Shown here one piece after another: positions 46,752 through 64,000 of a stretch of DNA of 64,000 bases (position 1 is the first letter of the stretch; each line of letters starts with the position of its first letter). Both the position numbers and the translations under genes were made by a program. This stretch comes from Sphingomonas sp. LR60. Its GTDB lineage: Bacteria; Pseudomonadota; Alphaproteobacteria; Sphingomonadales; Sphingomonadaceae. The notes below the pieces were generated by a model that saw only the letters and a program-made list of their open reading frames with translations, had not been told where the DNA came from and did no database searches. Location: assembly GCF_036855935.1 (NCBI RefSeq), contig NZ_JASPFK010000001.1, forward strand, positions 655,501 through 719,500, in the 5' to 3' direction.

Positions 46752-48937
46752 GCGGCGTGCGCCAGCTGCCCGCGCCGCGCACGCTGCGAGGTGAGCGCGT
46801 CGACGTCGATGATCAGCGCGACGCGCCCGTCGCCGAGGATCGTCGCCCCCGCCAGCCCGTCGATCGCCTGGTAATTGGCCTCGAGGCTCTTCACGACCAC
46901 CTGTCGCTGATCCTGGATCGAATCGACCAGCAGCGCGGCCTGACCCTGATCGCCTTCGACGACGATCAGCACCGCCTTCTCGGGATCGCGCTCGCCGCTG
47001 CCGATGCCGAGCTGTTCGGCGACCGGATAGATCGGCACATAGGAGCCGCGCACGTCGAGTACTGCTCCGTTGATGCCGATCGCGGTGACCGACCGGTCCG
47101 AGGGCCGCAGGCTTTCGACGATGTGGCTGAGCGGGATCACGAACGTCTGATCGCCGACCGTGACGATCATGCCGTCAACCACCGCCAGCGTGAGCGGCAG
47201 GCTGAGCGAGAAGCTCGACCCGGACCCGAAGCGCGAATGGATGCCGATCCGCCCGCCGAGCGCCTGAACGTTCTTGCGCACAACGTCCATGCCGACGCCG
47301 CGCCCCGAGATGTTCGAGACGGTCGCCGCGGTCGAGAAGCCGGGCGCGAAGATGAGATTGTCGACTTCCTCGTCGCTCAGCACCGCGTCGGGCAGGATGA
47401 TCCCGCGCTCGACCGCCTTGGCGCGGACGCGCGTGCGGTCGATCCCGCGTCCGTCGTCTGCGACGGTGATGACGATCCGTCCCGAATGATGCGCGGCCGA
47501 GAGCGTGACGACACCGGTTTCGGGCTTGCCTGCCTTGATGCGCTCTTCGGTGGTTTCCAGCCCGTGATCGACCGCGTTGCGGATCAGATGCGTCAGCGGC
47601 TCGCCGATCCGCTCGACGACGGTCTTGTCGACCTCGGTCATCTCGCCTTCGATGTCGAGCCGGACGCGCTTGCCGGTTTCGCCCTCGAGTTCGCGGATGA
47701 TGCGCGGCACGCGGCTGAAGACGGTCTTCATCGGCTGTGCGCGGATCGCCATCGTCGATTCCTGAAGCTCGCGCGTCAGGTGATCGAGGTCGGTCAGCTC
47801 GGAGATGCCGGCCATGTCGTTCTCGCTCAGCCGTTGCGCGAGCATCGCCTGGGTGATGACGAGTTCGCCGACGAGGTTGACGAGTCGATCGAGCTTGTCG
47901 AGGTCGACGCGGATCGTCTGGGCGACCGGGGTCGGCGGTGCGGCGGGGGCGGCGGCCACGGGACGCGGTGCGGGAGCGGCGGCCGGTGCCACGGCAACGG
48001 GCGTCGGGGCCGGGGTCGGCGTCGGTGCCGGGGCAGCCGCGATCGGCGCGGGGGCAGGGGCAGGGGCGACCGGCGGAGCCGCCACCGGCTCCGGTGCCGC
48101 AGCGACCACGACCGTCGGCGGCGCGGCCGGCGGGAGGCTGGCGACCTTCTCCAGCGTCAGCGCGCAGCCGTCGGTGAATTCGAAGACGCCGCGGATGTCG
48201 TCTTCGGCGACCGCCGCAGGCACCGCGATCCGCCATGCCAGATATGAGAGTTCGGGATCGAGCGTCGCGAGCGGGGGCAGCGTGTCGGCGTCGCACGACA
48301 GCACCTGCGCGCCCATCCGCAGCAATTCGCGGAGCAGCAGCAGCGGCTCGCCGCCATTGTCGAGTCCGTTGGCGGGCGGGCGGAAGGTCAGCAGCCAGCC
48401 GGGGGTTGCTTCTTCGTCATTGTCCTCTGCGGGCGGTGCCGCAGCCGGACCGCCGACATCGTCGAGCATCGCCATCAGGTCGTCGAAATCGTCACCGATG
48501 CCGATCGGCGCGGTATCGGTGACCGCCTCGATGGTTACCGGCTCGGGCGCGGGTGCCGCTTCGCCGCTCGCCGCCGCGATCAGCCGCGCCAGCATCGCCG
48601 CGTCGTCGGGCGCGTCGCCACCGTCGCGCGCCGCGGCGACATGATCGGCGAGCATGTCGAAGGCGGCGACGATCAGGTCGACCAGCGCCGGGGTGAGTGC
48701 CAGCGACTCGCTGCGCAACAGGTCGAGCAGCGTCTCGTACTGATGGGTATAGGCCTGAAGCCGCTCGTGCCCGAACGCGCCCGCCCCGCCCTTGATCGAG
48801 TGGACCGCGCGGAAGATGCCGTTGATCGTCTCGCCGTCATATTGCTGGTCGCGAAGCGCGGCGAAGGCGCTTTCCATGCCGGCCAGGCCTTCTTCGCATT
48901 CCTGGAAGAAGATCTGCTGGATTGCATCGAGGTCCAA
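46748..48937 (-). CDS. cheA: Chemotaxis histidine kinase CheA
   Basis: Central chemotaxis kinase, 729 residues. P1 phosphotransfer domain has His46 (AVHSIKGGAGAFGH). A region near 150-240 resembles a P2-like adaptor. A long Pro/Ala linker (APAPAPIAAAPAPTPTPAP) follows. P3 dimerisation, P4 ATPase (LIRNAVDHGLET, DDGRGID, GRGVGMDVVRKN, FGSGSSFSLSLPLTLA) and the CheW-like P5 end complete it. I start it at a TTG (48935-48937) because AGGAG lies seven bases before and the P1 domain begins right there (MDLDAIQQIFFQEC). It is downstream of the STAS gene and overlaps cheR by four bases. Confidence 0.95.
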   Translation of the reverse strand: MDLDAIQQIFFQECEEGLAGMESAFAALRDQQYDGETINGIFRAVHSIKGGAGAFGHERLQAYTHQYETLLDLLRSESLALTPALVDLIVAAFDMLADHVAAARDGGDAPDDAAMLARLIAAASGEAAPAPEPVTIEAVTDTAPIGIGDDFDDLMAMLDDVGGPAAAPPAEDNDEEATPGWLLTFRPPANGLDNGGEPLLLLRELLRMGAQVLSCDADTLPPLATLDPELSYLAWRIAVPAAVAEDDIRGVFEFTDGCALTLEKVASLPPAAPPTVVVAAAPEPVAAPPVAPAPAPAPIAAAPAPTPTPAPTPVAVAPAAAPAPRPVAAAPAAPPTPVAQTIRVDLDKLDRLVNLVGELVITQAMLAQRLSENDMAGISELTDLDHLTRELQESTMAIRAQPMKTVFSRVPRIIRELEGETGKRVRLDIEGEMTEVDKTVVERIGEPLTHLIRNAVDHGLETTEERIKAGKPETGVVTLSAAHHSGRIVITVADDGRGIDRTRVRAKAVERGIILPDAVLSDEEVDNLIFAPGFSTAATVSNISGRGVGMDVVRKNVQALGGRIGIHSRFGSGSSFSLSLPLTLAVVDGMIVTVGDQTFVIPLSHIVESLRPSDRSVTAIGINGAVLDVRGSYVPIYPVAEQLGIGSGERDPEKAVLIVVEGDQGQAALLVDSIQDQRQVVVKSLEANYQAIDGLAGATILGDGRVALIIDVDALTSQRARRGQLAHAA

Positions 48938-48969
48938 GGTCGGGCTCCTGCGCGAAAAGGGTCTTGAGG

Positions 48970-49233
48970 TCAGGCGGCGGCGAGGACGTCGAGCGCGGCA
49001 AGCTCGCCGGCCTCGATCATCGCGACGCTGGGGAAGGCGACCTGCCACGGCAGGCCGCGCGCCACGGCGGCGGCGCGCGCCGCGGCCAGCACCTGAAGGC
49101 ACGCCTGCCCGATCTGGTCGACGGCGCCGGCATCGATCGCGATCGGCTCCGCGGCCTCGACCAGCTTTTGCAGCGACTGGCGCAGCGGCGCCGCCGCGGC
49201 GGTATCCAATCGGGAGCTGAGGACGATCGACAT
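48970..49233 (-). CDS. STAS-domain protein heading the chemotaxis operon
   Basis: An 87-residue STAS domain (like anti-sigma-factor antagonists): VLSSRLDTAAAAPLRQSLQKLVEAAEPIAIDAGAVDQIGQACLQVL shows the alternating strand/helix pattern. The usual phosphorylatable serine/threonine of DxSGI/LDS is not clear: VDQIGQACL carries a cysteine where D-S is typical. It is the first gene of the operon, 32 bases before cheA. A sensor-scaffold role or a chemotaxis-linked switch is possible; function not established. Confidence 0.8.
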   Translation of the reverse strand: MSIVLSSRLDTAAAAPLRQSLQKLVEAAEPIAIDAGAVDQIGQACLQVLAAARAAAVARGLPWQVAFPSVAMIEAGELAALDVLAAA

Positions 49234-49533
49234 CGCGGACTTTCCTGTCAGATGACGCAGGGACGGCGCGGGCCGAAGCGATGTGCGATCACGATGGTCC
49301 CTTCCGTCCCCAGAGATGGTCGATTTCCCGCGCTTGATCCGCCGACGGGGAACCGGTCTGCGGTCGATCTGCCCGATCTCTCCTAAGATGACGTTAAATG
49401 CGCCGAGGCGCGGCGAAGTAGCCGCCAAGAGTACGGCGGTTAATACGATCACAACCAATGACTTGCATGGCTGATCGCAGAACGGCGACGGCGCCGGCGG
49501 GGGTGCGTTTTGTTGCAGTCGGTAAGGACGGTG
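49234..49533. promoter_or_regulatory. Divergent promoter region, chemotaxis operon and DUF2332-like gene
   Basis: This 300-base gap contains no coding signal and must carry the operon promoter on the minus strand and a promoter for the plus-strand gene. A small palindrome gccgccaagagtacggcggt lies at about 49420-49441. No sigma-28 (TAAA-N15-GCCGATAA) or sigma-54 signature was found by eye. Confidence 0.4.
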
Positions 49534-50562
49534 ATGCCGGAGGATCGATCGGGCGAGTTGCTGCGCCAGTCGGCGGTGATGCGCGCGATCGGCTCGCCGT
49601 TCGTCGCCGACGTGCTGGCCGCCGCCGCGCGGCAATTGACGCACGCGCCGCTGACCTGCGCGATGCTCGCGGACTGGCCGGGTGACCCGGCGGCGGCGGC
49701 GGTGGCGATGAGGCTGAACGCGGCGTTGCACGCGCTGGCGCGCCGCAACACGCCGCCGGTGCTCGGCGCCTTGTATCGCGGCGCGCATGACGATTTCGAC
49801 GGTGCGGTGCGCGCGGCGTTGCGGGCGCACGATGCCTTCATCGCGCGCTGGCTGCGCGACATGCCGCAGACCAACGAGGTCGGCCGCGCGGCCGCGATCC
49901 TGGGTGCGTTGATGGAAGTGGTCGGTCGGGTGGCGTTGCCGGTCGAGTTGATCGAACTGGGGGCGAGCGCCGGGCTCAACCTCAACCTCGCTCGCTATCG
50001 CTACGATCTGGGCGGAGTCTCGGCGGGGGCGGCCGAGTCGGCGGTGCGGATCGCGCCCGAGTGGCGCGGCGCGGCGGCACCGGACCGGACCGTCGACGTC
50101 GTGGCGGCGGAGGGGGTCGATCTCGATCCGCTCGACCCGCACGACCCCGCGACGTGCGAGCGGTTGATGGCCTATGTCTTCGCCGACCAGCCGGCGCGCG
50201 CGGCGCGGCTCGCGGCGGCGCTGGTGGTGGCGCGGCAGCATCCGCCGCGGATCGCGCATGCCAATGCGACGACGTGGCTGGCGGAGCGGCTGGCGACGCC
50301 GCAGCCTGCCGGGCGGTGGCGCGTGGTCTTCCATTCGATGATGGCGCAATATGTCGACGCGGCGGCGCGTGCGTCGCTGGACCGCTGCATCGCCGCTGCG
50401 GGCGCGCGCGCGGATGCCGAGCGGCCGCTGGCGCGGATCGCGTTCGAATGGGACAGGACGCGCAGTGAAGTGGAGCTGCGGCTCAGCTGCTGGCCTGGCG
50501 GCGACACACGCGTGCTGGCGACGTGCCATCCCTATGGCGCGTGGATCGACTGGATCGGGTAA
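49534..50562 (+). CDS. DUF2332-like protein
   Basis: A 342-residue cytoplasmic protein similar to the DUF2332 family. Conserved pieces: SPFVADVLAAAARQL, TPPVLGALYRGAHDDFD, TNEVGRAAAILGALMEVVGRVALPVELIELGASAGLNLNLARYRYDL and IAFEWDRTRSEVELRLSCWPGG. The ELGASAGLNL segment resembles an SAM-type nucleotide-binding loop, so a methyltransferase-like fold is possible but unproven. ATG 49534 is chosen because AAGGA is five bases upstream. Confidence 0.82.
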   Translation: MPEDRSGELLRQSAVMRAIGSPFVADVLAAAARQLTHAPLTCAMLADWPGDPAAAAVAMRLNAALHALARRNTPPVLGALYRGAHDDFDGAVRAALRAHDAFIARWLRDMPQTNEVGRAAAILGALMEVVGRVALPVELIELGASAGLNLNLARYRYDLGGVSAGAAESAVRIAPEWRGAAAPDRTVDVVAAEGVDLDPLDPHDPATCERLMAYVFADQPARAARLAAALVVARQHPPRIAHANATTWLAERLATPQPAGRWRVVFHSMMAQYVDAAARASLDRCIAAAGARADAERPLARIAFEWDRTRSEVELRLSCWPGGDTRVLATCHPYGAWIDWIG

Positions 50563-50644
50563 AAATCCCGCCTTTATCCATGTTTAACTAACCGACGCTA
50601 GACGCAGAGCGTACATACGAGCCCCTGCGGCAGAAAGAACAGAG

Positions 50645-52476
50645 ATGTTCAAGACTCTGAGCATACCGAGGAAGCTGGGTTTTCCTTCCTCGTCATCAAT
50701 GCCTCGGCGGCGATCATGATGGTCGTGTTCTTCGCCAATATCTGGATGATCCGCGCGGCGACCGCGAGCAACAACCACAGCCAGGAAGTCTATGCCAAGG
50801 CGTTGACGCTGGAGACGTCGATCCTGCGCGAGAACAGCCAGTTGCGCGGGTATCTGGTCACAGCCGATCCGACGTATCTGAAGTCGTACAACGAAGCGCG
50901 CGCGGAATATGACCAGGCGACGGTCGCCCTCGAACAGATGTTGACCGACCCGGCGCAGCGCGCGCTGGTGCTCACGTCGCGCGAACAGACCGCCAAGTGG
51001 CGGCGCGACTGGAGCAACCGGCTGGTCGCGATGGTGAAGGCCGGACAGCGCGAGGTCGCCGAACAGGCGGTGCGCGATGCCGGCAAGAAGGTGCTGACCA
51101 GCGCGATCGTGCTGCCGTTGCGCGACCTGCGCGATCAGGAAACCGCCGCGATCGACGAGAATGCCGCCGAGCAGGCGCAGGTGCTGACCACCGCGACGAT
51201 CGCGCTGGTGCTGGGCGGCATCGCGCTGATCGGGATCGCGGTGCTGTTGCAGACCGCATTGAGCCGAAGCATCGCGCGGCCGGTGAGCGCGCTGACGCGG
51301 CGCATGGCCGACCTGGCCGCGGGCAAGAGCGCGATCGACGTGCCGGACACCGCGCGTGCGGACGAACTGGGCGACATGGCGCGCGCGGTGCTGGTGTTCC
51401 GCGACGCCGCGCAGGCCAAGCTGACCGCCGATCAAGAGCGCGAACTGGCGATGCGCGCGATCGGCGACGGGCTGCACCGTCTGTCCGAAGCCGACCTGAC
51501 GGTGCGGCTGGCGGCGCTGCCGGGGTCCTATGCCGTGCTGTCGAAGGACTTCAACGGTGCGGTCGGCAAGCTTTCGGACCTGACGTGCAACGTGCGGCGC
51601 AGCGTCGAGACGATCAAGCAGAATGCCGAGGAGATCAGCCAGTCCGCGCGCGACCTGTCGTCACGCAGCGAGCAGCAGGCGGCATCGTTGCGCGAAACCG
51701 CCGCGGCGATGGACGAGATCACCGGCACCGTCCGCGAAGGCGCGACCAACGCCGCCGATGCCAACAAGGCGATGGCCGAGGCGCGCAACGCCGCACAGCA
51801 GGGCGGCGAGGTCGTTCGCAAGTCGGTCGCGGCGATGAACGGGATCGATCAGGCGAGCCGTGAAATTGCCGATATCATCAGCGTGATCGACGGCATCGCG
51901 TTCCAGACCAATCTGCTCGCGCTCAATGCCGGCGTCGAGGCGGCGCGGGCCGGGGAGGCGGGCAAGGGCTTCGCTGTCGTCGCCAGCGAGGTGCGCGCGC
52001 TGGCGCAGCGTTCCGCCGATGCCGCGGCCGACGTGAAGACGCGGATCATGTCGGCGATCCACCACGTCAAGTCGGGGGTCGAGCTGGTCGACGAAACCGG
52101 ACAGGCGCTGGAACGGATCATCGACCGTGTCGGCAGTGTCAGCGACGTCATGGCGACGATCGCGCGCGCGTCGGATCATCAGGCCGAAAGCCTGGGACAG
52201 GTCAATATTGCGATCAGCGAGATGGACGGGGTGACGCAGCAAAATGCCGCGATGGTCGAGGAATCGACCGCCGCCGCGAACCTGCTGGCGCGCGAATCCG
52301 AGCAACTCGCGGGGGCGGTGGCGATCTTTACCGTCGACGACGCACCGGTGCGCTCGGCGCCGGTCGCGGTGAGCGCGCCGCGCGCGCGCCACATCACCGC
52401 GCCGACCCGTCCGCTGCCGCGCACGATCGGCAATACCGCGCTGAAGGCGAGCGAGGACGACTGGTCGGCGTTTTGA
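50645..52476 (+). pseudogene. Methyl-accepting chemotaxis protein, one-base frameshift near the start
   Basis: Membrane chemoreceptor of about 610 residues after repair. From ATG 50645 the first 12 codons (MFKTLSIPRKLG) are followed by a G run of three at 50677-50679 where four are needed; the resumed frame FSFLVINASAAIMMVVFFANIWMI supplies the first membrane segment. A periplasmic CHASE3-like helical region, a second membrane segment (ATIALVLGGIALIGIAVLLQTAL), HAMP, and the signalling domain with [45 protein letters not shown]-type hairpin follow. The C-terminus ends DDWSAF, a W-x-x-F type tether. The receptor ligand is unknown. Confidence 0.9.
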
Positions 52477-52615: not shown

Positions 52616-54517
52616 TCAGCCCGTGAACGCTCCGATTTCGGCGACCGTCAGGTTGCCCGCCGGGATCGCCGGTGCCTCGAAGCGTAGCCGCAGGTAGCGG
52701 GCCTGCCGGACTGCGAACGGCACGCGCTGGGTGGCGAGCGCGTAGGCGATGTTGGCGAACTCGCCGGTCGCCGCGGGCACCCAGTTCTTGCCGTCGGCGC
52801 TCGTCTCCACATCATAGCCGCGCGGCGGCGCAGTATCCTTGGCGATGGTGCGCGATGGAGTGAGGCTGAAGCCGGCGAGTGGCAGGACGCGGCCGAGGTC
52901 GATCGTCACGCTCGCGGGATTGGCCGCCGTCGGTGACGGCACCGTCCAGCGCGTCTGCGCGTCGCCGTCGATCAGTTTCTCCGCGCCGGGTCCGCTGGCG
53001 GTGACGATCGACCAACCCTGCCGCGGGATGATCGTCGGATCGGATACCTTGGGTGGCGCGACGGGGACGGGCTGGACCTGGCGGAACAGCGAAATCTCGC
53101 TGATCGCGGGGCAGGCGGGGGCATCGAGTATGCGCAGCCGCAGCCGGCGCGCCGAGGACGGTTGCGGCAGGCGCACGATCCGCTGCGCGCTGATGCACTC
53201 ATGCTCGGCAACCGTCCGCCATTGCCCGGCTTCCTCAAGGTCTATCGCGAACTTCGTCACGCGGACGCCGAGCGGGAGGTATTCGCGCAGCCGGATCACG
53301 TCGAACGTCCGGCCGGGTGGCAGGTCGAGCGTCAGCGTCGGCGTTGTGTCGCCATCGGGCGTCGACCAATAGGTGTCGCGGCGCCCGTCGAGCACCCGCG
53401 ACGCGGCGAAGGCGCGGCCGCGCTCGGCACTGGCATGTGCGACCGCGCCCTGGGCCAGATTGCGGGCATAGGTCTGCGCCTGCGCGTCGCCGAAGCTCTT
53501 GAGCACCGCGGCGTCGTGATCGGCGACACGGCCGCGGCGATCGGGCGGGATGTTGAGGTGCATGTTGGTGCCGCGTCCGACCGATTCGTCGAAATAGCGC
53601 AGCAGGCGGGCGGGGCTCTTTACCTTGGCGTCCTCGTCGGCGTGGTAGAACCAGCCGGGACGGATCGAAGTGTTGGTCTCCGCCGGCCACCACACAGGCG
53701 CGCCGCGCACGCCGGAATTGCCCTCCGACTGGACGTAGGGATGCGCGGGCATCGTCGGCCAGCACGGGTCGCCGGCAATACCGTCTTCGTTGCCGACCCA
53801 GCGAATGTCCGCGCCATACGGGTCGAAGGTGCAGGCCATCGGCTGATGCTGGTGCACCAGCGCGATGATCGACGGCCAGTTATAGTATTTCGGCGCATCG
53901 ATCTTCCGCGTCTCGCGGGCGCCGCCGTAATAACCGTCGCCGCCGTTCGCGCCATCGAACCAGAATTCGAACAGCTCGCCATAGCGCGTGCAGAGTTGGA
54001 CGACCTGCTTGCGATAGTAATCGATATACGCGGGACGCCCATATTCGGCGTGGTTGCGGTCCCAGGGTGACAGATACAGGCCGAAGGCGAGCCCGGCGCG
54101 GCGCGTCGCCTTTTCCATCTCGCCGACGATATCACCCTTGCCGCCTTTATACGGGCTGTTGCGGATGCAATGCTCGGTCAGCAGCGTCGGCCACAGGCAG
54201 AAGCCGTCGTGGTGCTTGGCGGTGAGAATGATGCCGCGCATCCCGCCCGCCTTGGCCGCGGCGACGATCTGGTCGGCGTCGAAGTCGGTCGGGTTGAAGA
54301 GCTTCGGGCTCTCGTCGCCGTATCCCCATTCGCGATCGGTGAAGGTGTTGATCGAGAAATGGATGAACGCGTATTGCTCGCGCATGTGCCACGCGGCCTG
54401 CCGCTTGGAGGGCGTCGCGCCCCATGGCTTCGGCGCGCCGGTGCCCTGTGCGAAGGCGGGGAGCGCGGTGGTCGCGGCTCCGGCGGCGATCAGCGCGCGG
54501 CGGGTGAGGTCGGTCAT
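52616..54517 (-). CDS. Alpha-L-fucosidase, GH29, with C-terminal F5/8-type domains
   Basis: Exported alpha-fucosidase of 633 residues. The twin-arginine signal MTDLTRRALIAAGAATTALPAFAQG is visible. The GH29 barrel has WGYGDESPKLFNPTDFDADQIVAAAKAGGMRGIILTAKHHDGFCLWP and the nucleophile Asp188 in LFEFWFDGANGG. The C-terminal third holds one or two galactose-binding/F5-8C type folds (ASRVLDGRRDTYWSTP and EKLIDGDAQTRWTVPS). It is the last gene of the leftward glycosidase set. Family GH29 removes alpha-1,2/1,3/1,4/1,6-linked fucose; linkage is not readable here. Confidence 0.93.
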   Translation of the reverse strand: MTDLTRRALIAAGAATTALPAFAQGTGAPKPWGATPSKRQAAWHMREQYAFIHFSINTFTDREWGYGDESPKLFNPTDFDADQIVAAAKAGGMRGIILTAKHHDGFCLWPTLLTEHCIRNSPYKGGKGDIVGEMEKATRRAGLAFGLYLSPWDRNHAEYGRPAYIDYYRKQVVQLCTRYGELFEFWFDGANGGDGYYGGARETRKIDAPKYYNWPSIIALVHQHQPMACTFDPYGADIRWVGNEDGIAGDPCWPTMPAHPYVQSEGNSGVRGAPVWWPAETNTSIRPGWFYHADEDAKVKSPARLLRYFDESVGRGTNMHLNIPPDRRGRVADHDAAVLKSFGDAQAQTYARNLAQGAVAHASAERGRAFAASRVLDGRRDTYWSTPDGDTTPTLTLDLPPGRTFDVIRLREYLPLGVRVTKFAIDLEEAGQWRTVAEHECISAQRIVRLPQPSSARRLRLRILDAPACPAISEISLFRQVQPVPVAPPKVSDPTIIPRQGWSIVTASGPGAEKLIDGDAQTRWTVPSPTAANPASVTIDLGRVLPLAGFSLTPSRTIAKDTAPPRGYDVETSADGKNWVPAATGEFANIAYALATQRVPFAVRQARYLRLRFEAPAIPAGNLTVAEIGAFTG

Positions 54518-54580
54518 CGGGGGCTCCTGACGAAAACGAAAGCACTGAATTGTTTAAAAAATCCGGCCCATTACCTCAGC

Positions 54581-54694
54581 CATTCGCCTCGAGTAGCCGT
54601 CGAGCTCGTCGAGACGGCCTATCGAGAGGACGCCGCATGGGACCACCTCTCGATACGGGCTCTCGACAGGCTCGATCCCTACTCGAGGCGAACG
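54581..54694. repeat. Large imperfect inverted repeat between GH92 and GH29 genes
   Basis: Left part 54581-54629 and right part 54645-54694 are imperfect complements: CGCCTCGAGTAGCCGTCGAG on the left and CTCGATCCCTACTCGAGGCG on the right, with CTATCGAGAGG facing CCTCTCGATACG in the middle. It is an extragenic palindrome inside the operon and may reduce read-through to the GH29 gene. Confidence 0.75.
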
Positions 54695-54724
54695 GCGTGG
54701 GTGAATGGCGACGGCCCATGTCCA

Positions 54725-57037
54725 TCACGCCGGCGTGCGCCCGAACGACGGCGGGCGATCCGGCATGTCACGTCCGAACGCCGGGTTCGGCGTCGCGCTC
54801 GTCGTGAAGCGCAATGTGCCGCCATTCACCAGATCGGCGTGCGCGATCCAGCTCTTCGTCCACGGGCGGCCGTTCCACGTCACTGCGGTGACATAGGGTG
54901 TGGCGGCGGTGTTGCCCGGCGCCTCGACCACCAGCCGCTTGCCGCCGGGCAGCGCCAGCGTCGCGCGCTCGAACAGCGGCGAGCCGAATACGTATACCGC
55001 CTCGACCGGATCGACCGGGTAGAAGCCGAGCGAAGACATCACGAACCAGGCGCTCATCTGCCCGCAATCGTCGTTGCCGATCACGCCGTTCGGATCGTTC
55101 TTGTACATCTCGGTGAGTAGCCGTCGCACCATCCGCTGCGTCTTCCACGGCGCGCCGACATAGGCATAGAGATAGGCGACATGCTGGTCGGGCTCGTTGC
55201 CGTGCGCATATTGGCCGACCAGCCCGCTGATATCGGGCGGCGCGTTCTTCGGCAGCGTCGACGGCGCGGTGAACAGCGTGTCGAGCTTCGCCTCGAACTT
55301 GGCGTCGCCGCCGATGTGCGCGATCAGGCCATAGACGTCGTGCTGGTTGAGGAACGTCGCCTGCCAGCCGTTCGCCTCCGTATAATCGCGCCACCACGGC
55401 TTGGGCATGTGCCCGAGCTGGATCGGGTCATAGTCCTTCCACCACGAACCATCCGCGAAGCGCGGGCGTGCGAAGCCGATCGACGCGTCGATGACGTTGC
55501 GCCAATTGCCCGAGCGCTTGAGCAGCCGGGCCGCTTCCGCCTCGGCACCAGCGACGCGCGCGATCCTGGACGACGCCCAATCGTCATAGGCATATTCCTG
55601 CGTGCGGCTGACGCTTTCGAACCATTTGTCCGCCGGGACATAGCCCTTGGCGTCGTACAGGTCGCGGCCCTTGCTGTTGTCGAGATCGGGCGCGCTGAAA
55701 TCGAAGGAGCGCTTGGCGATCGCGGGCCACGCCGCCGCGTAATTGGCGGGGATGCCCTTGGCGTGCGACTCGGCGAGCACCGACACGCCATGCCAGCCGA
55801 TCATCGTGCCGGTCTCGACACCCTGCAACGGCCAGACCAATGGGCCGTACGGGCTTTGCTGCGTCTGCCGGATCAGGTCGTCGACGAGCGACTTGACGCG
55901 ATCCGGCGCGACAATCGTCAGCAGCGGGTGGAGCGCGCGATACGTATCCCACAGCGAATAGGTCGAATACGCGCGCTGGCCGGCGGGCACATTGTGCACC
56001 TGCCGGTCGAGCCCGACGTACCGGCCGTCGACATCCGAGAAGAGCGTCGGCGCGACCATCGTGTGATAGAGCGCGCTCGCCATGATCGTGCGCTGGTCGG
56101 CGGTGCCGCCTTCGACGGTGATCGCGCCCAGCGCCTCGGCCCAGCGGCGCGCGGCGGCGCGACGGATGCCGTCGAAGTCGCCGCGGGTCGCCTCGGCCTT
56201 GAGGTTCGCGCGCGCGCCCGCGACGTCGACCGCCGAGATACCGCAGCGGATCACGATCGGCGCCGCGCCGGCATCGTCGTAGAACAGCACCGCCTTGACG
56301 CGCTTCGCCGATACGGACGTCGCCCCCTTCGGCTGTTCGACGTCGTCGTCGCCGTAGAAAGCGACACGATCGGGCTTGCGCGAGAGCTGCATCGCGAAAT
56401 GGATGCGCCGGCCCTTGGACCAGCGATGGACGCGACGGCTGCCGGTCAGCGTGCCGTCGGCGTCGAGCGTGAGGCTGCCGTCGTCGATCAGCGGTCCGCT
56501 GTCCCATTTGTCGAGGATCATGTGCGCCATGTCGATCAGGATGTGACCGGCGCCCGTGGGGAAAGTGTAGCGGTGCCAGCCGGTCCGCTCGGTCACGGTC
56601 AGCTCGGCGCGGACGCCGCTTTCCAGGGCGACACGGTAATAGCCCGGCTCGGCATGTTCGTCCGAGTAACGCTGGCGATACCCCTGGTCGGGCGTCTCGA
56701 TCGGACCGGGCTGGAGCTGCACGGGGCCGCGCGTCGGCACGACCAGCACGTCGAGCATGTCGCCGATCCCGGTGCCCGACAGATGCGTGTGGCTGAACCC
56801 CATGATCGAGCCGTCGCCGTGGTGATAGCCGGAGCAGGTGTCCCAGCGCGCCACATCGGTGTCGGGGGACAGCTGCACCATGCCGAAGGGCAGGGTCGCG
56901 CCGGGATAGGTATGGCCGTCGCCACCGGTGCCGACGAACAAATTGGGCGCGGCGCGGCGCGGGGCGGCGGCGAAGCTGGGGAGCGGCGCGATCGCGGCGG
57001 TGGCGGTGGTCGCGAGCAAGGCGCGGCGGGTGAGCAT
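54725..57037 (-). CDS. Alpha-mannosidase, GH92
   Basis: Exported calcium-dependent exo-alpha-mannosidase of 770 residues. The N-terminus MLTRRALLATTATAAIA is a twin-arginine signal. The galactose-mutarotase-like N-domain has NLFVGTGGDGHTYPGATLPFGMVQLSPD and GYHHGDGSIMGFSHTHLSGTG; the barrel has YSLWDTYRALHPLLTI, GYVPADKWFESVSRTQEYAYDDW, GNEPDQHVAYLYAYVGAP and NGVIGNDDCGQMSAWFVMSSLGFYPVDP, which are family hallmarks. Start at ATG 57037 overlaps the GH125 stop by one base. GH92 enzymes trim alpha-mannose from N-glycans. Confidence 0.95.
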   Translation of the reverse strand: MLTRRALLATTATAAIAPLPSFAAAPRRAAPNLFVGTGGDGHTYPGATLPFGMVQLSPDTDVARWDTCSGYHHGDGSIMGFSHTHLSGTGIGDMLDVLVVPTRGPVQLQPGPIETPDQGYRQRYSDEHAEPGYYRVALESGVRAELTVTERTGWHRYTFPTGAGHILIDMAHMILDKWDSGPLIDDGSLTLDADGTLTGSRRVHRWSKGRRIHFAMQLSRKPDRVAFYGDDDVEQPKGATSVSAKRVKAVLFYDDAGAAPIVIRCGISAVDVAGARANLKAEATRGDFDGIRRAAARRWAEALGAITVEGGTADQRTIMASALYHTMVAPTLFSDVDGRYVGLDRQVHNVPAGQRAYSTYSLWDTYRALHPLLTIVAPDRVKSLVDDLIRQTQQSPYGPLVWPLQGVETGTMIGWHGVSVLAESHAKGIPANYAAAWPAIAKRSFDFSAPDLDNSKGRDLYDAKGYVPADKWFESVSRTQEYAYDDWASSRIARVAGAEAEAARLLKRSGNWRNVIDASIGFARPRFADGSWWKDYDPIQLGHMPKPWWRDYTEANGWQATFLNQHDVYGLIAHIGGDAKFEAKLDTLFTAPSTLPKNAPPDISGLVGQYAHGNEPDQHVAYLYAYVGAPWKTQRMVRRLLTEMYKNDPNGVIGNDDCGQMSAWFVMSSLGFYPVDPVEAVYVFGSPLFERATLALPGGKRLVVEAPGNTAATPYVTAVTWNGRPWTKSWIAHADLVNGGTLRFTTSATPNPAFGRDMPDRPPSFGRTPA

Positions 57038-58461
57038 TACAGGGCTTCCTTGAGGATCGCAGGGTTCGTGCGCGCGAGCCGCACGATCAGTTCGCCGAAC
57101 AGGCCGTTCGCCCAGGCGAACCAGTGGCGCGTCCATTTGGCCGGGTCGTTCATGTCGAAGGTCTCGTGCATGAAGCCTGTGCCCGCATCGGTGTCACGCA
57201 AGGTCTTCAGACAGGTGCGGATCGTGGCCGCATCGGTGGTGGAGAGCGCGCGGACGATCAGCGACATCGGCCAGATCTGACCCAAGCCGACGTGCGGTCC
57301 GCCGATCCCTTCACCCGCCGTGCCGCGGAAGAAATAGGGGTTGGCCTCGCTCCACGCCGCCGCCTCGGTACGCCGCCACAAGGCGTCGTCGGGCGCGACG
57401 CAGCCGAGATAGCCGAGGCCGGACAGCGAGGGCACGTTGGCGTCGTCCATGAACATGGCGTTCCCGAAGCCGTCGACCTCGTACGCCCACACCTCGCGGC
57501 CGTCGCGCAGCCGCATCGTGCCCCATTGCTTCAGCGCGGCCTCGACCTCGGCGGCGAGCGCGGTGGCGTCGGCGGCGAGCGCATCGTCATGCGCGGCTTC
57601 ACTGGCGACGCGCGCCATCTCGCGCAGCGCGGTGACCGCGAACAGGTTCGACGGGATCAGGAACGGATATTGGCAGGCGTCGTCCGACGGGCGGAAGCCG
57701 GAGACGATCAAACCCACCGGACGGATCGGATTGCCCCAACCTTCCAGCGGCATCATCTCGGTATTGCGGTTAGAGGTGCGCAGGAAGCTGTACGGACCGC
57801 GCCCGTCCTTGCGTTGCTGTTCGCGGAAGGTGCGGACGCTCGCGCGCGCGGCCTCGGCCCAGGTCGTGTCGAACGGGCGCGGGTCGCGCGTCGCCTGCCA
57901 GTAACCGTGCGCGAGCCGCATCGGATAGCAGAGCGAGTCGATCTCCCACTTCCGCTCGGCGACGCCGGGCTTCATCTCGGTCTGGTCCTTGAGCGACCAT
58001 TCGAGATCGGTCTTGGCCGCCGGATCCTGCATGAAGGCGTTCGCATAGGGGTCGATCAGTATCGACCGCGCCTGTCGCGCAATCAGCCCGCGGAACAGCT
58101 CGCCGAGCTTCGGGTCGTCCTTGACGAGGTGCAGGTAGGGCGTGACCTGCGCCGAACTGTCACGCAGCCATAGCGCATTGATGTCCCCGGTAATGACGAA
58201 GGCGTCGGGGCGTCCGTCGATGGTGCCCATCTTGACGGTGGTGTCGAGCGTGTTCGGATAGCAATTGCCGAACATCCAGCGCAGCTTCGGGTCGGCAATC
58301 TGCTTCGACACGCGCGCGAGTTCGCGCTCGACCGCGGGCGAGGTGAAGCGGCGGTCGGCGAGCGCAGGGCGCTTGCTGGCAACGTCCGGCTTGGCGGCGA
58401 AGGCGGGCGTCGCGGCGAGCGCGGCGCTGCCGGCGAGGAAGTGGCGGCGGGTGGGGGTCAT
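57037..58461 (-). CDS. Exo-alpha-1,6-mannosidase, GH125
   Basis: Exported metal-independent alpha-mannosidase of 474 residues. MTPTRRHFLAGSAALAATPAFA is a twin-arginine signal. The (alpha/alpha)6 barrel has FGNCYPNTLDTTV, TGDINALWLRDSSAQVTPYLH, WEIDSLCYPMRLAHGYW, SGFRPSDDACQYPFLIPSNLFAV and ETFDMNDPAKWTRHWFAWANGLFGELI, all typical of GH125, which cleaves alpha-1,6 mannose. It is coupled to GH92 by TAATG and follows GH3 across 130 bases. Confidence 0.95.
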   Translation of the reverse strand: MTPTRRHFLAGSAALAATPAFAAKPDVASKRPALADRRFTSPAVERELARVSKQIADPKLRWMFGNCYPNTLDTTVKMGTIDGRPDAFVITGDINALWLRDSSAQVTPYLHLVKDDPKLGELFRGLIARQARSILIDPYANAFMQDPAAKTDLEWSLKDQTEMKPGVAERKWEIDSLCYPMRLAHGYWQATRDPRPFDTTWAEAARASVRTFREQQRKDGRGPYSFLRTSNRNTEMMPLEGWGNPIRPVGLIVSGFRPSDDACQYPFLIPSNLFAVTALREMARVASEAAHDDALAADATALAAEVEAALKQWGTMRLRDGREVWAYEVDGFGNAMFMDDANVPSLSGLGYLGCVAPDDALWRRTEAAAWSEANPYFFRGTAGEGIGGPHVGLGQIWPMSLIVRALSTTDAATIRTCLKTLRDTDAGTGFMHETFDMNDPAKWTRHWFAWANGLFGELIVRLARTNPAILKEAL

Positions 58462-58591
58462 GCGGGTATACTCCGTGTCCCGGCGCAGGCCGGGACTCAG
58501 TTGCGGAACAAGTGTGACGACGTGCTGCCTTCCATCGCGAAGGGCGTCCCAACTGGGCCCCGGCCTTCGCCGGGGTACAGGGTGCGGGCGA
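58462..58591. repeat. Repeat-bearing gap between GH3 and GH125 genes
   Basis: The 130-base spacer contains a copy (58537-58576) of the 40-base element found after comEC at 3368-3407, plus a small palindrome gtcccggcgcaggccgggac at about 58480-58497. No gene is present. A separate promoter for GH125 is possible. Confidence 0.6.
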
Positions 58592-61114
58592 TCACTTCGG
58601 TAGATCCACGTCGGTTCCGGTCACCGCGAAGTCGGTCCAGGTTCCCGCGGCACTTCCCGGCTGGCCACCGCCGACCCACAGGCGATAGCCACCGGGCACG
58701 ATGTGCCGCCGCCCGTCGCGCTCGACGATGCTCATCATCCGCGGGTCGATCGTGAAGCGCGCGGTGGCGGCCTTGCCGGCGCGGAGCGGAATGCGCTGGA
58801 AGCCGACCAGCTGTCGTTGCAGCACCGGCGTCGTGAAGCCGCCACTTCCGACCTTGGGCGGCACCAGATACGCTTGCACCACTTCCTCGCCGTCGCGTCG
58901 TCCGCTGTTGGTGACGCGCGCGGTGACGGTCAGCGGCTGCCCGGCGGCGACGCTGGCTGCGCCCGCAACCCGGTCATAGCCGAAGCTCGTATACGACAGC
59001 CCGTGCCCGAAGCCCCAGAGCGGCGTGCCGGTGAAGTAGCGATAGGTGCGCTCCTTCATCCCGTAATCGACGAAGGCGGGCAGGTCGGTGGTCGCCTTGT
59101 AGAAGGTCACCGGCAGCCGTCCCGACGGGTTGGTCGCACCCGTCAGCACGTCGGCGAGCGCGGTGCCGCCCGCTTCGCCCGGATACCAGAGCGCGAGCAC
59201 CGCATCGGCCATTGCCGGATCGACCGCCACCGCGCTGCCGCTCGCCAGCACCAGAACAATCGGCTTCCCGGTCGCCTTCAGCGCGGTCAGCAGGCGTTGT
59301 TGCGCGAAAGGAAGCGCGATGTCGCTGCGGTCGCCGCCGATGAAGCCGGGCACCTGCACCTGCAGCGCCTCGCCCTCCAGGTCAGGGGAAAGGCCACCGA
59401 CCATCACGACGACGTCGGACGCCTGCGCCGCCTTGACCGCTTCGGCGACCAGCGGCTCTTCGGGTGGGAGCCACAACAGGCGGAACGTCTCGTCCTGGCT
59501 GCTGTGATCGAGCGTCAGGTCGAACGGCTGCGGCTGGCCGTCGCTGTCCCAAGCGATCTCGACCCGGCCCTTGGCGACTGCGCCCTGATGAAGCACGCGC
59601 CCGCCGACCGACAGCGTCGCGGTGTCGTGCGTGCTGCAATTCTTCCAGCATTGCGCCTGATCGAGCATTAGCCGGTACGCGCCCGGTCCTGGCGGGGTCA
59701 GCGTGCCGGTCCAGCGCGCGACATAGCCCTGCACCGGCAAGCCGGGGGCCGGGGGGACACGCGTCAGGTCGAGGTCGATATGGCGCTCGGCACGCTTCAG
59801 TACCTCGCGCCCTCCGACGCTGTAGCTGGCGGTCAGGTTCCTGAGCGCCGTCTCCGGCAGCACCACCGGCGCGCCATCGGCAAGCACCGAGCCCTGCGCA
59901 TAGGCGACATTCGCAAATCGCTGACGCAAGCCGGCCAGCGGGGTGACCGGCTGGACCGCGGTGCCGTGGTAATTGCCCTGCAGCACGCCGAGATCGTCGG
60001 CGTTCGCACCGATCACCGCCAATTTGGTGCCCGGCGCGAGCGGTAGCCGCTGGCCACTGTTCTGAAGCAGGACGATCGCCTTGCGCGCCGCGTCCAGCGC
60101 CAGCGCGCGGTTGCCGGCCGTGTTGATCGCATCCGGCTTGATGTTCGCCCACGGGCTGGTCGCGCCGAACGCGATCCCCAACCGGCGACGCGCGTCGAGC
60201 GAGCGGTGGAGTGCGGTGTCGACCTCCGCCGTGCTGACCAATCCGCGCTGCACCGCTTGCGGAATCGCCGAATAGGTGTTGCCGCAATTCAGGTCGTTGC
60301 CACCCTTTACCGCCGCCGCGGCAGCCGCCGCCGCGTCGAGCCGGTAATGGTGGAACATGTGGATGTTCGCGACCGCATCGCAGTCCGAGACGGTGAAGCC
60401 GGTGAACCCCCAGTCGCGGCGCACGCGATCGTTGAGCAGCGTGCCCGACGCGCACGCCGGCGTGCCGTGGATCGAATTGTACGCGCACATCAGCGACTGC
60501 GCCTTGCCCTCGGTCACCGCCATGCGGAACGCGGGGAGATAGGTCGCCTCAAGATCCTGCGGGCTGGGATCGACGTCGAAGCCGTCGCGTCCGGCCTCGG
60601 GCCCGCTGTGCACCGCGAGATGCTTGGGCGTCGCGATCACCTTGGGATGGAGCGGGTCCGGGCCTTGCAGGCCGGTGACGAACGCGACGCCCAGCTTGCC
60701 GGTGAGATACGGGTCCTCGCCATAGGTTTCCTGCCCGCGGCCCCAGCGCGGATCGCGGAAGATGTTGATGTTGGGCGACCAGATCGTCAGCCCTTCGTAG
60801 ATGCGGCGGTTCGCGCCGACCGGCTGCGCGTTGAACTTCGCGCGCGCCTCGGTGGCGACCACATCGCCGATCTTGTGGACCAAGGCGGTGTCCCACGTCG
60901 CCGCCATGCCGATCGCCTGCGGGAAGACGGTGGCATGGCCGTTGCGCGCGAGGCCGTGCAGCCCCTCGTTCCACCAGTCATAGGCGGGTAGCCCGGCCTT
61001 GGCGTCGGCGGGCGCGGTGCTTTGCAGCTGCGCGGCTTTCTCCTCGATCGTCATCGTCGCGATCGTCGTCGCGACCGGGTCGGCGGCGGCGCTTGCCAAC
61101 AGCAGCCAGATCAT
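58592..61114 (-). CDS. Exported beta-glycosidase GH3, likely beta-xylosidase/beta-glucosidase type, with PA14-like insertion
   Basis: An 840-residue GH3 enzyme with a short Sec signal. The N-terminal barrel has NEGLHGLARNGHATVFPQAIGMAATWD, SPNINIFRDPRWGRGQETYGEDPYLTG and VIATPKHLAVHSGPE; the nucleophile Asp244 is in FTVSDCDAV. Then a sandwich domain (VLLQNSGQRLPL), a PA14-like insert (about 435-545, with YVARWTGTL and YRLMLDQAQCWKNCSTHD), and a fibronectin-type end. The pattern is that of bacterial GH3 xylosidase/glucosidases. A role in removing beta-xylose from plant N-glycans is inferred. It overlaps the GH2 stop by four bases (ATGA). Confidence 0.92.
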   Translation of the reverse strand: MIWLLLASAAADPVATTIATMTIEEKAAQLQSTAPADAKAGLPAYDWWNEGLHGLARNGHATVFPQAIGMAATWDTALVHKIGDVVATEARAKFNAQPVGANRRIYEGLTIWSPNINIFRDPRWGRGQETYGEDPYLTGKLGVAFVTGLQGPDPLHPKVIATPKHLAVHSGPEAGRDGFDVDPSPQDLEATYLPAFRMAVTEGKAQSLMCAYNSIHGTPACASGTLLNDRVRRDWGFTGFTVSDCDAVANIHMFHHYRLDAAAAAAAAVKGGNDLNCGNTYSAIPQAVQRGLVSTAEVDTALHRSLDARRRLGIAFGATSPWANIKPDAINTAGNRALALDAARKAIVLLQNSGQRLPLAPGTKLAVIGANADDLGVLQGNYHGTAVQPVTPLAGLRQRFANVAYAQGSVLADGAPVVLPETALRNLTASYSVGGREVLKRAERHIDLDLTRVPPAPGLPVQGYVARWTGTLTPPGPGAYRLMLDQAQCWKNCSTHDTATLSVGGRVLHQGAVAKGRVEIAWDSDGQPQPFDLTLDHSSQDETFRLLWLPPEEPLVAEAVKAAQASDVVVMVGGLSPDLEGEALQVQVPGFIGGDRSDIALPFAQQRLLTALKATGKPIVLVLASGSAVAVDPAMADAVLALWYPGEAGGTALADVLTGATNPSGRLPVTFYKATTDLPAFVDYGMKERTYRYFTGTPLWGFGHGLSYTSFGYDRVAGAASVAAGQPLTVTARVTNSGRRDGEEVVQAYLVPPKVGSGGFTTPVLQRQLVGFQRIPLRAGKAATARFTIDPRMMSIVERDGRRHIVPGGYRLWVGGGQPGSAAGTWTDFAVTGTDVDLPK

Positions 61115-63696
61115 TTGCGTCCTCCCAGCGAGCGCAGCGTCAAGGCGCGCTTCAATTGTGCGGGCGTCGCGCTCGACGCCACGGTGATCGCGCGGCTTTC
61201 GCCGGGCAGCAGGTCGAAGCCGTCGTCGGACGGCTGGGCGGAGGTCGCGCCGAAATCGAGCATCACCGCGCGCGCCAGCGCCTTCGCGGTGATCGTCACG
61301 GTCCGGCCCTCCCAGCGCACCGACAGGCCGGGGTCGGGCCAGCGCACGTCCTTGGGGAGTACCCGCTCGACGATGCGCCGGTGCAGCAGGCGGGTGTCGA
61401 AGTATAGTTCCGCCACGGCATAGCTCTCACCCGGCGCGGCCGTCCCGAACAGTTCGGCGTCGGGGATCGTCGCCGCCTCGCTGGCGGCCAGCGGTTCGAT
61501 CATCGTCTCGCCGCCGCGCTCGCCGAGCACATGTCCGGCCATATCGAACCCGCGAACGCGCCAGCGCCCCGATAGCGGCGTCGTAGCGTCCGACACGATC
61601 GCGACGCGTGTCGCCGCGTCCTTGTGCTCGGCGACGATCACCTGCTCCGCGAAGAAGCGTCGCGCGGCATATTGGAGCAGCTTCCACCGCCCGTCATAGT
61701 CGATGCTCGACCAGGAGATGGCGGGCCAGGTGTCGTTCAACTGCCAATAGAGCGACCCCATCGTCACCGGGCGGCAGGCGCGATGATGCAGCGCCGCCAT
61801 TTCGATCGCCTGCGCCTGATTGACCTGGCTCAGATACACGTAGTCCGCCAGTCCCTTGGGCTCGCCGAGCCGCTCGCGGATGTAGAAGAGCAGCCGGTCG
61901 TTGCCTTCCCCGGCAAGGAACTTCTGGTGTGCCTTCATCACCGGATCGGTGGGCGCGACGTTCAGATTGCCCGCGAAGTCCTTGATCGTCGCCAGATCGG
62001 GCATCGCCTGAAAGCCATATTCCGACATGAAGCGCGGGCAGGAGTTCAGATAGTTCGCGACCGGCTTCGACCCGGACCAGACATCCCAGAAATGGCGGTC
62101 GCCCGCGGCATCGGTGTCCACCGGACCTTCGTAATCGGTCGAGGGTGAACCCGGCCAGTACGGTACCGCCGGATCGAAGTCGCGCACCGCCTGCCGCAGC
62201 ACGCGGTCGAACAGCACGGCCATCCCGATGCCGATCCGTTCCTGCTCGTCCGCGCCGACGGCTTTCTTGAACGCCTTGCGATCCGACCAGTTTTCCCAGC
62301 CCGACAGCACTTCGTTGCCGCCCGCCCACAACACGATCGACGGGTGACCGGACACGCGGGCGACCTGCTGTTCGGCCTCGACGCGGACATTCTCGCGGAA
62401 CGCCACGTCGGGTGGTGTCACCGCGCCGCCGAACATGAAGTCCGACCAGATCATCAGCCCGAGCTCGTCGGCGGCATCGAAGAAGGCATCGGGGAGATAA
62501 TAACCGCCGCCCCAGATGCGGATCATGTTCATATTGGCCGATTTCGCATCGGCGAGCAGGCCGCGCATCTTGGCGGGCGTGACGCGCGCCGGAAAGTTGT
62601 CGAAGGGGATCAGGTTCGCGCCCTTGGCGAAGATCGGTGTATCGTTGACCTTGAACCCGAAGGCGCCGCCACCGCGGATCAGCTCGACGGTGCGCAGCCC
62701 GATGCGGCGTTCCGCCCGGTCGCTCTCGGTGCCGTTCTCGGCCAGCGTGCCTGCCACCCGGTAGAGCGGCTGCGCACCGTAACCGACCGGCTGCCAGCGT
62801 TGCGGCTGCGCGATCGTCAGCGGAATGATGACGCGATTGTCGCCGGGCGTCAGCGTCACGTTCTGCTCGGCGGTGACCAGCTTCCCGTCAGGCGCGGTGA
62901 TCGTTGCGCGCACCAGCGCCGGGCCGCTCCGATCGGCGACCACGTCGAACTTCGCATCGAGCCGCGCCTCGGCGTCGGTCAGCGCGACCTGCTCGAAGCG
63001 CAGTTGCGCCAGCCGGGCATCGTCCCATGCCTCCAGCCGCATCGGCTGCGTCGGGCCGATGTTGATGATGCGGGGGCCCCAGTCCCAGCTCCAGTCGTAT
63101 TTGGGTTTGCGGATGTAGGGGGAGGTCTGCTTGCCCTTCGGTTCGTCGCCGAACGCGGAGTCGTATTCGCCGGGCAGCGGGTGCGCCTCGGCCAGCACCT
63201 TCGGCTGCATCGTCCTGATCGGCGAGGCGAAGGTGAGGGTGATGATGTTGTCGCCGGCCTTGAGGAAGCGCTTGGCATCGACGCGCCATTGCCGGTGCGC
63301 ATTGTCGGCGCTCAGCACCGGCTGGCCGTTGACCGACACGGTCGCGAAGGTGTCGAGCGCGTCGAACACCAAGTCGAGATGGCCGCGCGCGATCTGTTCG
63401 GCGCTCAGCCGGAGCGTGCGCTGATATTGCCAGCCGGTCAGCCCGGCCCATTGGATCGCCGCCTCGTTGGTGCCCTTGAAGGGATCGGGCACCTGTCTGG
63501 TCGCGATCAGCGCCTGTTGCACGCTGCCCGGCACGGTCGCGTCGAACCATTTGGCGGCGCGCGGATGCGTGCGCGCGGCGTCGGCGTCCCGGGGGTCGAT
63601 GCGTACCTGCCAGCCCTGATCGAGCGGCGTCACCGTCTTCGGTGCCGCCACCGCCGCGGTCGAGGCGAGCAGCAACGGCAGGGCCAGCCACCGCAT
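61111..63696 (-). CDS. Beta-mannosidase, GH2
   Basis: Exported GH2 enzyme of 861 residues. It begins with a Sec signal (MRWLALPLLLASTAAVAAP). The N-terminal sugar-binding domain has QVPDPFKGTNEAAIQW, and PKYDWSWDWGPRI is typical of beta-mannosidases. The barrel carries the acid/base Glu462 in LWAGGNEV and the nucleophile Glu559 in FMSEYGFQ. It overlaps the downstream GH3 start by four bases and the upstream gene's stop by one base, so it is in one operon. It would cleave the core beta-1,4 mannose of N-glycans. Confidence 0.94.
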   Translation of the reverse strand: MRWLALPLLLASTAAVAAPKTVTPLDQGWQVRIDPRDADAARTHPRAAKWFDATVPGSVQQALIATRQVPDPFKGTNEAAIQWAGLTGWQYQRTLRLSAEQIARGHLDLVFDALDTFATVSVNGQPVLSADNAHRQWRVDAKRFLKAGDNIITLTFASPIRTMQPKVLAEAHPLPGEYDSAFGDEPKGKQTSPYIRKPKYDWSWDWGPRIINIGPTQPMRLEAWDDARLAQLRFEQVALTDAEARLDAKFDVVADRSGPALVRATITAPDGKLVTAEQNVTLTPGDNRVIIPLTIAQPQRWQPVGYGAQPLYRVAGTLAENGTESDRAERRIGLRTVELIRGGGAFGFKVNDTPIFAKGANLIPFDNFPARVTPAKMRGLLADAKSANMNMIRIWGGGYYLPDAFFDAADELGLMIWSDFMFGGAVTPPDVAFRENVRVEAEQQVARVSGHPSIVLWAGGNEVLSGWENWSDRKAFKKAVGADEQERIGIGMAVLFDRVLRQAVRDFDPAVPYWPGSPSTDYEGPVDTDAAGDRHFWDVWSGSKPVANYLNSCPRFMSEYGFQAMPDLATIKDFAGNLNVAPTDPVMKAHQKFLAGEGNDRLLFYIRERLGEPKGLADYVYLSQVNQAQAIEMAALHHRACRPVTMGSLYWQLNDTWPAISWSSIDYDGRWKLLQYAARRFFAEQVIVAEHKDAATRVAIVSDATTPLSGRWRVRGFDMAGHVLGERGGETMIEPLAASEAATIPDAELFGTAAPGESYAVAELYFDTRLLHRRIVERVLPKDVRWPDPGLSVRWEGRTVTITAKALARAVMLDFGATSAQPSDDGFDLLPGESRAITVASSATPAQLKRALTLRSLGGRK

Positions 63697-64000
63697 CAGC
63701 GGCGCTCCGTCAACTGGACGCTGCCGACTGCGTAATAAGGGTCGCTGAGCGGCGCGGTGAACTGAAAGCAGATGTCCTGATCTCCGGTCATCTTCGGCAG
63801 CGTGCCTTCGAAGGTGAAGCGTTGCGGCGCGCTCGCCGGATCGGGCAAAGGGAACGCGCCGATGGCGACCGGCTTGGCGGTCTTGTCGCCCGCCTCCTGC
63901 GCCTTCGCCGCCGCGGTGCAGCCCAACTGGACCAGCAGCTCGCCGTATGGCGAGACCGCATATTGCTGGCGCGCCTTCGCCCCGTCGTGGCCGAGCGCCC
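63696..64000 (-). CDS. Probable beta-N-acetylhexosaminidase (GH20), C-terminal end only
   Basis: The last 100 or so codons of a gene whose start lies beyond the window. Residues visible are HDGAKARQQYAVSPYGELVQLGCTAAAK, then GTLPKMTGDQDICFQFTAPLSDPYYAVGSVQLTERR, a beta-sandwich-like C-terminal segment of the kind that closes exported GH20 hexosaminidases. The family call rests on this short tail and on context, since a GlcNAc-removing step is otherwise missing from the operon. The stop overlaps the GH2 start by one base (TGATG). Confidence 0.5.
   Translation of the reverse strand, partial: ALGHDGAKARQQYAVSPYGELLVQLGCTAAAKAQEAGDKTAKPVAIGAFPLPDPASAPQRFTFEGTLPKMTGDQDICFQFTAPLSDPYYAVGSVQLTERR

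Follow-up and report, generated by a model that had tools for sequence, protein, structure and literature searches.

A probable Sphingomonas locus for asparagine-linked N-glycans, with a terminal glycosylasparaginase and a candidate role for CutC

Here, we describe a ~26 kb locus of Sphingomonas sp. LR60 which, as we hold with good confidence, feeds on N-linked glycans still bound to asparagine. It is a variant of the nix type known from Xanthomonas, in which the glycosidases are ordinary and the interesting parts are the terminal step, performed by a putative glycosylasparaginase (AGA), and the protein CutC. The window, i.e., the whole 64,000-nucleotide stretch that was analysed, comprises bases 655501-719500 of the 3.82 Mb contig NZ_JASPFK010000001.1; neighbours right of position 64000 were read from the genome sequence and are given in window-equivalent coordinates. 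The full locus occupies 52616-78371 on this scale, and the glycosidase genes in the window form its left half.

Gene content and organization of the locus

A Pfam scan of the open reading frames placed GH29, GH92, GH125, GH3 and GH2 genes on the minus strand at 52616-63696, followed at the window edge by the last ~101 codons (305 bases, 63696-64000) of a GH20 gene whose whole reading frame lies at L004:14197-16512(-) in a fetched stretch, window-equivalent 63696-66011. Farther right lie a receptor, a regulator and a second operon.

52616..54517, minus strand: exported GH29 alpha-L-fucosidase with a C-terminal F5/8-type domain, GH29B-like (Pfam PF01120 9e-36, PF00754 3e-25)
54725..57037, minus strand: exported GH92 alpha-mannosidase (PF07971 8e-158)
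57037..58461, minus strand: exported GH125 alpha-mannosidase, alpha-1,6 by family (PF06824 4e-156)
58592..61114, minus strand: exported GH3 glycosidase, beta-xylosidase-like (PF00933 8e-44, PF01915 1e-51)
61111..63696, minus strand: exported GH2 beta-mannosidase, start at 63696 (Pfam GH2 7e-46, Ig_mannosidase 1e-14)
63696..64000, minus strand: GH20 beta-N-acetylhexosaminidase gene, 3' end (PF00728 3e-110)
66145-69018 (window-equivalent): TonB receptor (TIGR01782, 622 bits)
69162-70007 (window-equivalent), plus strand: GntR/UTRA regulator, divergent, between the two operons
~70138-71838 (window-equivalent), leftward operon: PTS IICB (IIBC-nag model, 606 bits vs cut-off 553)
71835-74312 (window-equivalent), leftward operon: PTS IIA-HPr-EI
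74337-75479 (window-equivalent), leftward operon: NagA (281 bits vs cut-off 226)
75476-76510 (window-equivalent), leftward operon: NagB-II (334 bits, under NCBIfam cut-off 430)
76594-77346 (window-equivalent), leftward operon: CutC (NCBIfam 139 bits, under cut-off 311)
77343-78371 (window-equivalent), leftward operon: AGA (glycosylasparaginase)

Sequence read at the junctions revealed TGATG between GH20 and GH2, ATGA between GH2 and GH3, and TAATG between GH125 and GH92, and since these overlaps amount to 1-4 bases, translational coupling across the three junctions is likely. Because of the TAATG overlap, in which one base is shared with the GH125 stop, the likely start of GH92 is 57037 rather than 57136. 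Spacers of 130 and 207 nt separate GH3 from GH125 and GH92 from GH29, respectively. A preliminary description of this DNA, made from its letters, had named the five families on one strand, a probable GH20 and overlapping starts and stops; the first and last are borne out as just described, and the GH20 is a true one. To the right of 64000, where that description looked for a TonB receptor, a regulator and a GH18/GH85 endoglycosidase, the receptor and a GntR/UTRA regulator are present, while GH85 and a stand-alone GH18 were not found.

By eye, the GH29, GH92 and GH125 proteins begin with twin-arginine-type leaders (GH125 matched Pfam TAT_signal at 1.5e-4, just below that model's cut-off), and GH2, GH20 and GH3 with Sec-type leaders, that of GH3 being short. 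GC content of the glycosidase stretch (68.1%) nearly equals that of the window (68.6%), and base composition thus gives no hint that the stretch was recently acquired from elsewhere. Immediately left of the glycosidase operon, at 44878-52476, the window holds a chemotaxis cluster (CheB, CheR, a CheA-type kinase, a STAS protein and a CHASE3 methyl-accepting receptor).

The second operon likewise contains ATGA overlaps, at AGA/CutC, NagB/NagA and EI/IICB. As NagB-II and CutC scored below the NCBIfam cut-offs, they are assigned to their families only, and the equivalog names do not apply. Between the PTS and TonB receptor genes, a 273-aa reading frame (L009:6570-7391, minus strand) runs antisense to the GntR gene and had no Pfam match. 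A search around the regulator gave no perfect palindrome; an imperfect one, TGGT-N6-ACCA at L009:6531-6544 between the GntR and TonB genes, is a possible operator, with look-alikes at the same place in two relatives (L018, L038) and none clear in the other relatives compared.

Specificity of the glycosidases

Compared with solved structures, the GH2 protein scored 895 bits against beta-mannosidase 6bye, presumably the Xanthomonas citri enzyme, vs 493 against 2vjx, the 6by- series being closest. For GH92, two structures were effectively tied (7zgm, 508 bits; 6f8z, 504.5 bits), namely the plant-N-glycan-specific alpha-1,3-mannosidase of Bacteroides massiliensis and BT3130, an alpha-1,3-mannosidase (PMC9522356). 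The GH125 family is described as specific for alpha-1,6-mannose (PMC10154615).

The best solved relatives of the GH3 protein are beta-xylosidases (343 bits; the best chain named beta-glucosidase reached 263), and the nearest NCBIfam model is the xylan beta-xylosidase Xyl3A, at 717 bits under a cut-off of 1250. The protein is thus beta-xylosidase-like, and the beta-1,2-xylose linkage is our assignment, one for which its sequence offers no N-glycan-specific anchor. All further GH3 matches in this genome are remote, at 31-39% identity. A GH3 relative on contig 2 (13451-15273; L106, L107) has two TGA stops inside one part and is apparently a broken gene.

With 8ayr, 5k9h, 4zrx and the alpha-1,3/4-fucosidase 3ues as best solved relatives, the GH29 protein resembles GH29B, a placement by similarity to these structures. 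Its target may be core alpha-1,3 or antennary alpha-1,4 fucose, both being possible because the enzyme is GH29B-like while the Xanthomonas fucosidase NixE is GH29A (PMC10154630). In four stretches from relatives (L140, L142, L155, L156), GH20 is accompanied by a second GH2 match, a distant one (27-29% identity) that is possibly a galactosidase for Lewis-a antennae. Elsewhere on contig 1 (~1222000-1258000; L006 and L007), a second locus combines TonB receptors and a GntR regulator with two further GH92 genes, GH43 and a DUF5597/GH35-like protein.

Glycosylasparaginase and the searches for glycan-releasing enzymes

The gene product of 'asparaginase' type is, by its sequence, a glycosylasparaginase (EC 3.5.1.26). 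It scored 311 bits against a solved glycosylasparaginase vs 101 against the best isoaspartyl peptidase, and the alignment matched the Thr of HDTIG, which we take to be catalytic, as well as W43, GRVGDSP and TG, presumably functional or binding motifs; the sole NCBIfam match was a beta-aspartyl-peptidase model at 100 bits, far under its cut-off of 567. Because the protein starts with a twin-arginine-type leader (by eye), it is probably periplasmic.

In the genome, no GH85 was found by a search in which one control genome was positive, and no stand-alone GH18, the single GH18 match lying inside a GH18-NodB-GT2 fusion (NodB and GT2 recognized by eye). The PNGase F N-domain was likewise not found in the genome, but control genomes also gave none, which makes this negative a weak one. 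In place of an endoglycosidase, AGA could perform the terminal step. As of a 2023 review, plant glycans had no reported GH18 or GH85 enzyme (PMC10154615). AGA requires free asparagine (PMC6960285), and therefore proteases are also required.

Distribution in Sphingomonas and relatives

AGA (E up to 1e-40) was detected in 4 of 149 genomes sampled over 96 genera of the family. A sample of 151 genomes of the genus gave AGA (E up to 1e-60) in 78, GH125 in 93 and CutC in 89, with GH125 present in 76 of the 78 AGA genomes. In the genus sample, 26 of the 80 AGA matches have neither CutC nor GH125 nearby, so the locus is frequently found in separate parts. Among 20 genus stretches, which were chosen around CutC, AGA and GH125 matches and are not a random sample, nine hold GH125-GH3-GH2 in the window's order, all nine with a relative of the GntR regulator and eight with GH92. 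Further, a GH3-GH92-GH29 run ends directly before AGA in 8 of the 80 fetched AGA loci, with GH125 inside the run in six. A relative of the GH3 enzyme (59-72% identity) is kept in the nine stretches and the eight AGA loci that have the gene run. The closest of the 80 named AGA loci is that of Sphingomonas phyllosphaerae FA2 (AGA 94%, NagB 99%), in keeping with the sphingomonad named in the preliminary description, and strains named 'Leaf' are the source of nine.

CutC

CutC has long been annotated as a copper-homeostasis protein. The protein encoded here matches the PF03932 family and fold (Pfam; VIA-align of the CutC model). In the genus sample, CutC occurs in 78/78 genomes with AGA vs 11/73 without it (Fisher p 2e-31, which is overstated since genomes share ancestry). 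The distance between the two genes in these 78 genomes is ≤500 bp in 32, 0.5-40 kb in 20, and larger or across contigs in 26; 78 of the 91 CutC matches lie ≤35 kb from AGA or ≤25 kb from GH125, and 13 lie elsewhere.

A comparable link appears in 247 genomes of Bacteroidota, the phylum of a locus titled Chitinophaga (L092): 91 have AGA, 76 CutC and 60 both (p 6e-20). Of these 60, 27 have the two genes no more than 2 kb apart, and in 26 of the 27 CutC follows AGA on the same strand. Other glycosidases of the query set were present in 4 of the 20 stretches fetched from the 27 close pairs, and a scan for further enzyme families covered ten reading frames of L119, L128, L131 and L134; L119 combines ROK, a SusC-size reading frame, SusD, a PNGase F C-domain protein, AGA, CutC, GH92, two GH29 and a melibiase.

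Counterexamples exist: 31 of the 91 Bacteroidota AGA genomes are without CutC, as are two AGA genomes, out of a set of eight genomes, that were reached through loci titled Brevundimonas. Moreover, four members of the genus that have neither AGA nor GH125 (L144-L148) carry CutC beside NagA and NagB, and the link of CutC may therefore be to GlcNAc-phosphate metabolism in general. In the Xanthomonas nix region, cutC was labelled copper resistance in 2019 (PMC6718126), and in X. citri it directly precedes an asparaginase gene by tag (XAC3091 and XAC3092; PMC5700972, PMC6718126).

Taken together, we tentatively propose, at somewhat less than even confidence, that CutC works in N-glycan catabolism as a sugar-phosphate-type enzyme of the cytoplasm, handling the glycosylamine (1-amino-GlcNAc or its 6-phosphate) released by glycosylasparaginase and PNGase.

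Comparison with known systems

As in nix systems, a TonB receptor here lies in one run with a hexosaminidase, a beta-mannosidase, a GH3 enzyme, alpha-mannosidases and a fucosidase. NixF (COG3858), which we take to be GH18-like, has no counterpart among the locus proteins, nor does the beta-galactosidase NixL among those scanned, a DUF5597/GH35-like protein occurring in L006. For nix genes other than NixE, which is GH29, family numbers are as we presume them. The likeness to nix noted in the preliminary description extends to the receptor and the glycosidase set, and does not extend to the GH29B-like fucosidase or to NixF.

The nix cluster (nixD-L) of Xanthomonas campestris and X. citri likewise brings together a TonB receptor, fucosidase, beta-hexosaminidase, beta-mannosidase, GH3-type enzyme and alpha-mannosidases (PMC5700972, PMC6718126), and Xanthomonas GH92 and GH29 enzymes act on plant N-glycans (PMC10154615). 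Unlike the nix cluster, the Sphingomonas locus adjoins an operon for a GlcNAc PTS with AGA and CutC. A plant N-glycan pathway of B. massiliensis has a similar GH92 (for alpha-1,3-mannose beside xylose), a GH3 beta-1,2-xylosidase and a core GH29, acting in that sequence, but PNGase acts first and several loci with SusC/D pairs are involved (PMC9522356). The alf-2 cluster of Lactobacillus casei also pairs a fucosidase with a glycosylasparaginase, splitting Fuc-GlcNAc-Asn; it differs in its MFS permease, intracellular enzymes and alpha-1,6-fucose, and does not trim the glycan tree (PMC6960285). A literature search on Sphingomonas and N-glycans found no title about such a locus.

Proposed pathway and alternative readings

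From the gene content, order and overlaps, the families and motifs, and their conservation across species, we infer the linkages cleaved, the order of action, enzyme location, regulation and the role of CutC as follows. The TonB-dependent receptor would import glycopeptides or glyco-asparagines, which exported exo-enzymes would trim in the order GH20 (antennary GlcNAc), GH92 (alpha-1,3-mannose), GH3 (probably beta-1,2-xylose), GH125 (alpha-1,6-mannose), GH2 (beta-mannose), GH20 (core GlcNAc) and GH29 (fucose). Residual GlcNAc-Asn would be split in the periplasm by glycosylasparaginase into aspartate and 1-amino-GlcNAc, the latter becoming GlcNAc, to be taken up and phosphorylated by the dedicated PTS and converted by NagA and NagB-II to fructose-6-P. 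The GntR/UTRA regulator probably detects GlcNAc-phosphate, and CutC, whose gene overlaps that of AGA by ATGA, may act on an amino-sugar intermediate. The best reading is thus an all-exo N-glycan route ending at GlcNAc-Asn, nix-like with different parts.

For a plant Asn-GlcNAc2-Man3-Fuc-Xyl glycan, the locus holds a candidate enzyme for each linkage, and a plant-type substrate is likely. This part of the preliminary description still depends on inference, because the GH3 linkage is itself inferred and the fucosidase is unlike NixE; its N-glycan part is strongly supported by the neighbours, GH2 and GH92. The same machinery could serve N-glycans generally (fungal, insect, algal or high-mannose), plant material being secondary, which we consider unlikely without being negligible; as the mechanism would be unchanged and only the substrate would differ, this estimate and that for the locus as a whole overlap. 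GH92, GH125, GH2, GH20, AGA and the nag genes suit any N-glycan, and the GH92 tie includes an alpha-1,3-mannosidase other than the plant-specific one. Against such breadth stand the retention of the GH3 relative with the gene run, the Leaf strains among the AGA loci, and the description of beta-1,2-xylose from plants, and of core alpha-1,3-fucose from plants and invertebrates (PMC10154615, PMC9522356).

A main role of the exported enzymes in stripping glycoproteins of the host to dampen plant immunity, with nutrition second, has been put forward for Xanthomonas nix (PMC5700972) and seems very improbable here, since the receptor, AGA, PTS and NagAB make up a feeding route and leaders by themselves give no indication of release from the cell. 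Equally improbable, and rejected on gene content, is a hemicellulose (mannan or xylan) or simple chitin/GlcNAc system with an incidental family mix: mannan and xylan loci do hold GH2 beta-mannosidases and GH3 beta-xylosidases, and a nag PTS suits chitin, but such a system would have no use for alpha-mannosidases, a fucosidase or a glycosylasparaginase, the locus proteins scanned included neither an endo-mannanase nor a xylanase, and where the preliminary description weighed hemicellulose-mannan neighbours, the genome shows a TonB receptor, a GntR regulator, glycosylasparaginase and GlcNAc catabolism.

Conclusions

Together, these results describe a probable Sphingomonas N-glycan feeding locus in which a terminal glycosylasparaginase and a GlcNAc PTS adjoin the glycosidases, and which would provide an all-exo route to plant glycans. 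Because of the AGA-CutC link, found in both the Sphingomonas genus and Bacteroidota samples, what CutC does can be put to a direct test. Human CUTC has the same fold (VIA-align) and invariant polar residues in common with CutC, and if the proposed role is true, it would be a candidate for the same role.
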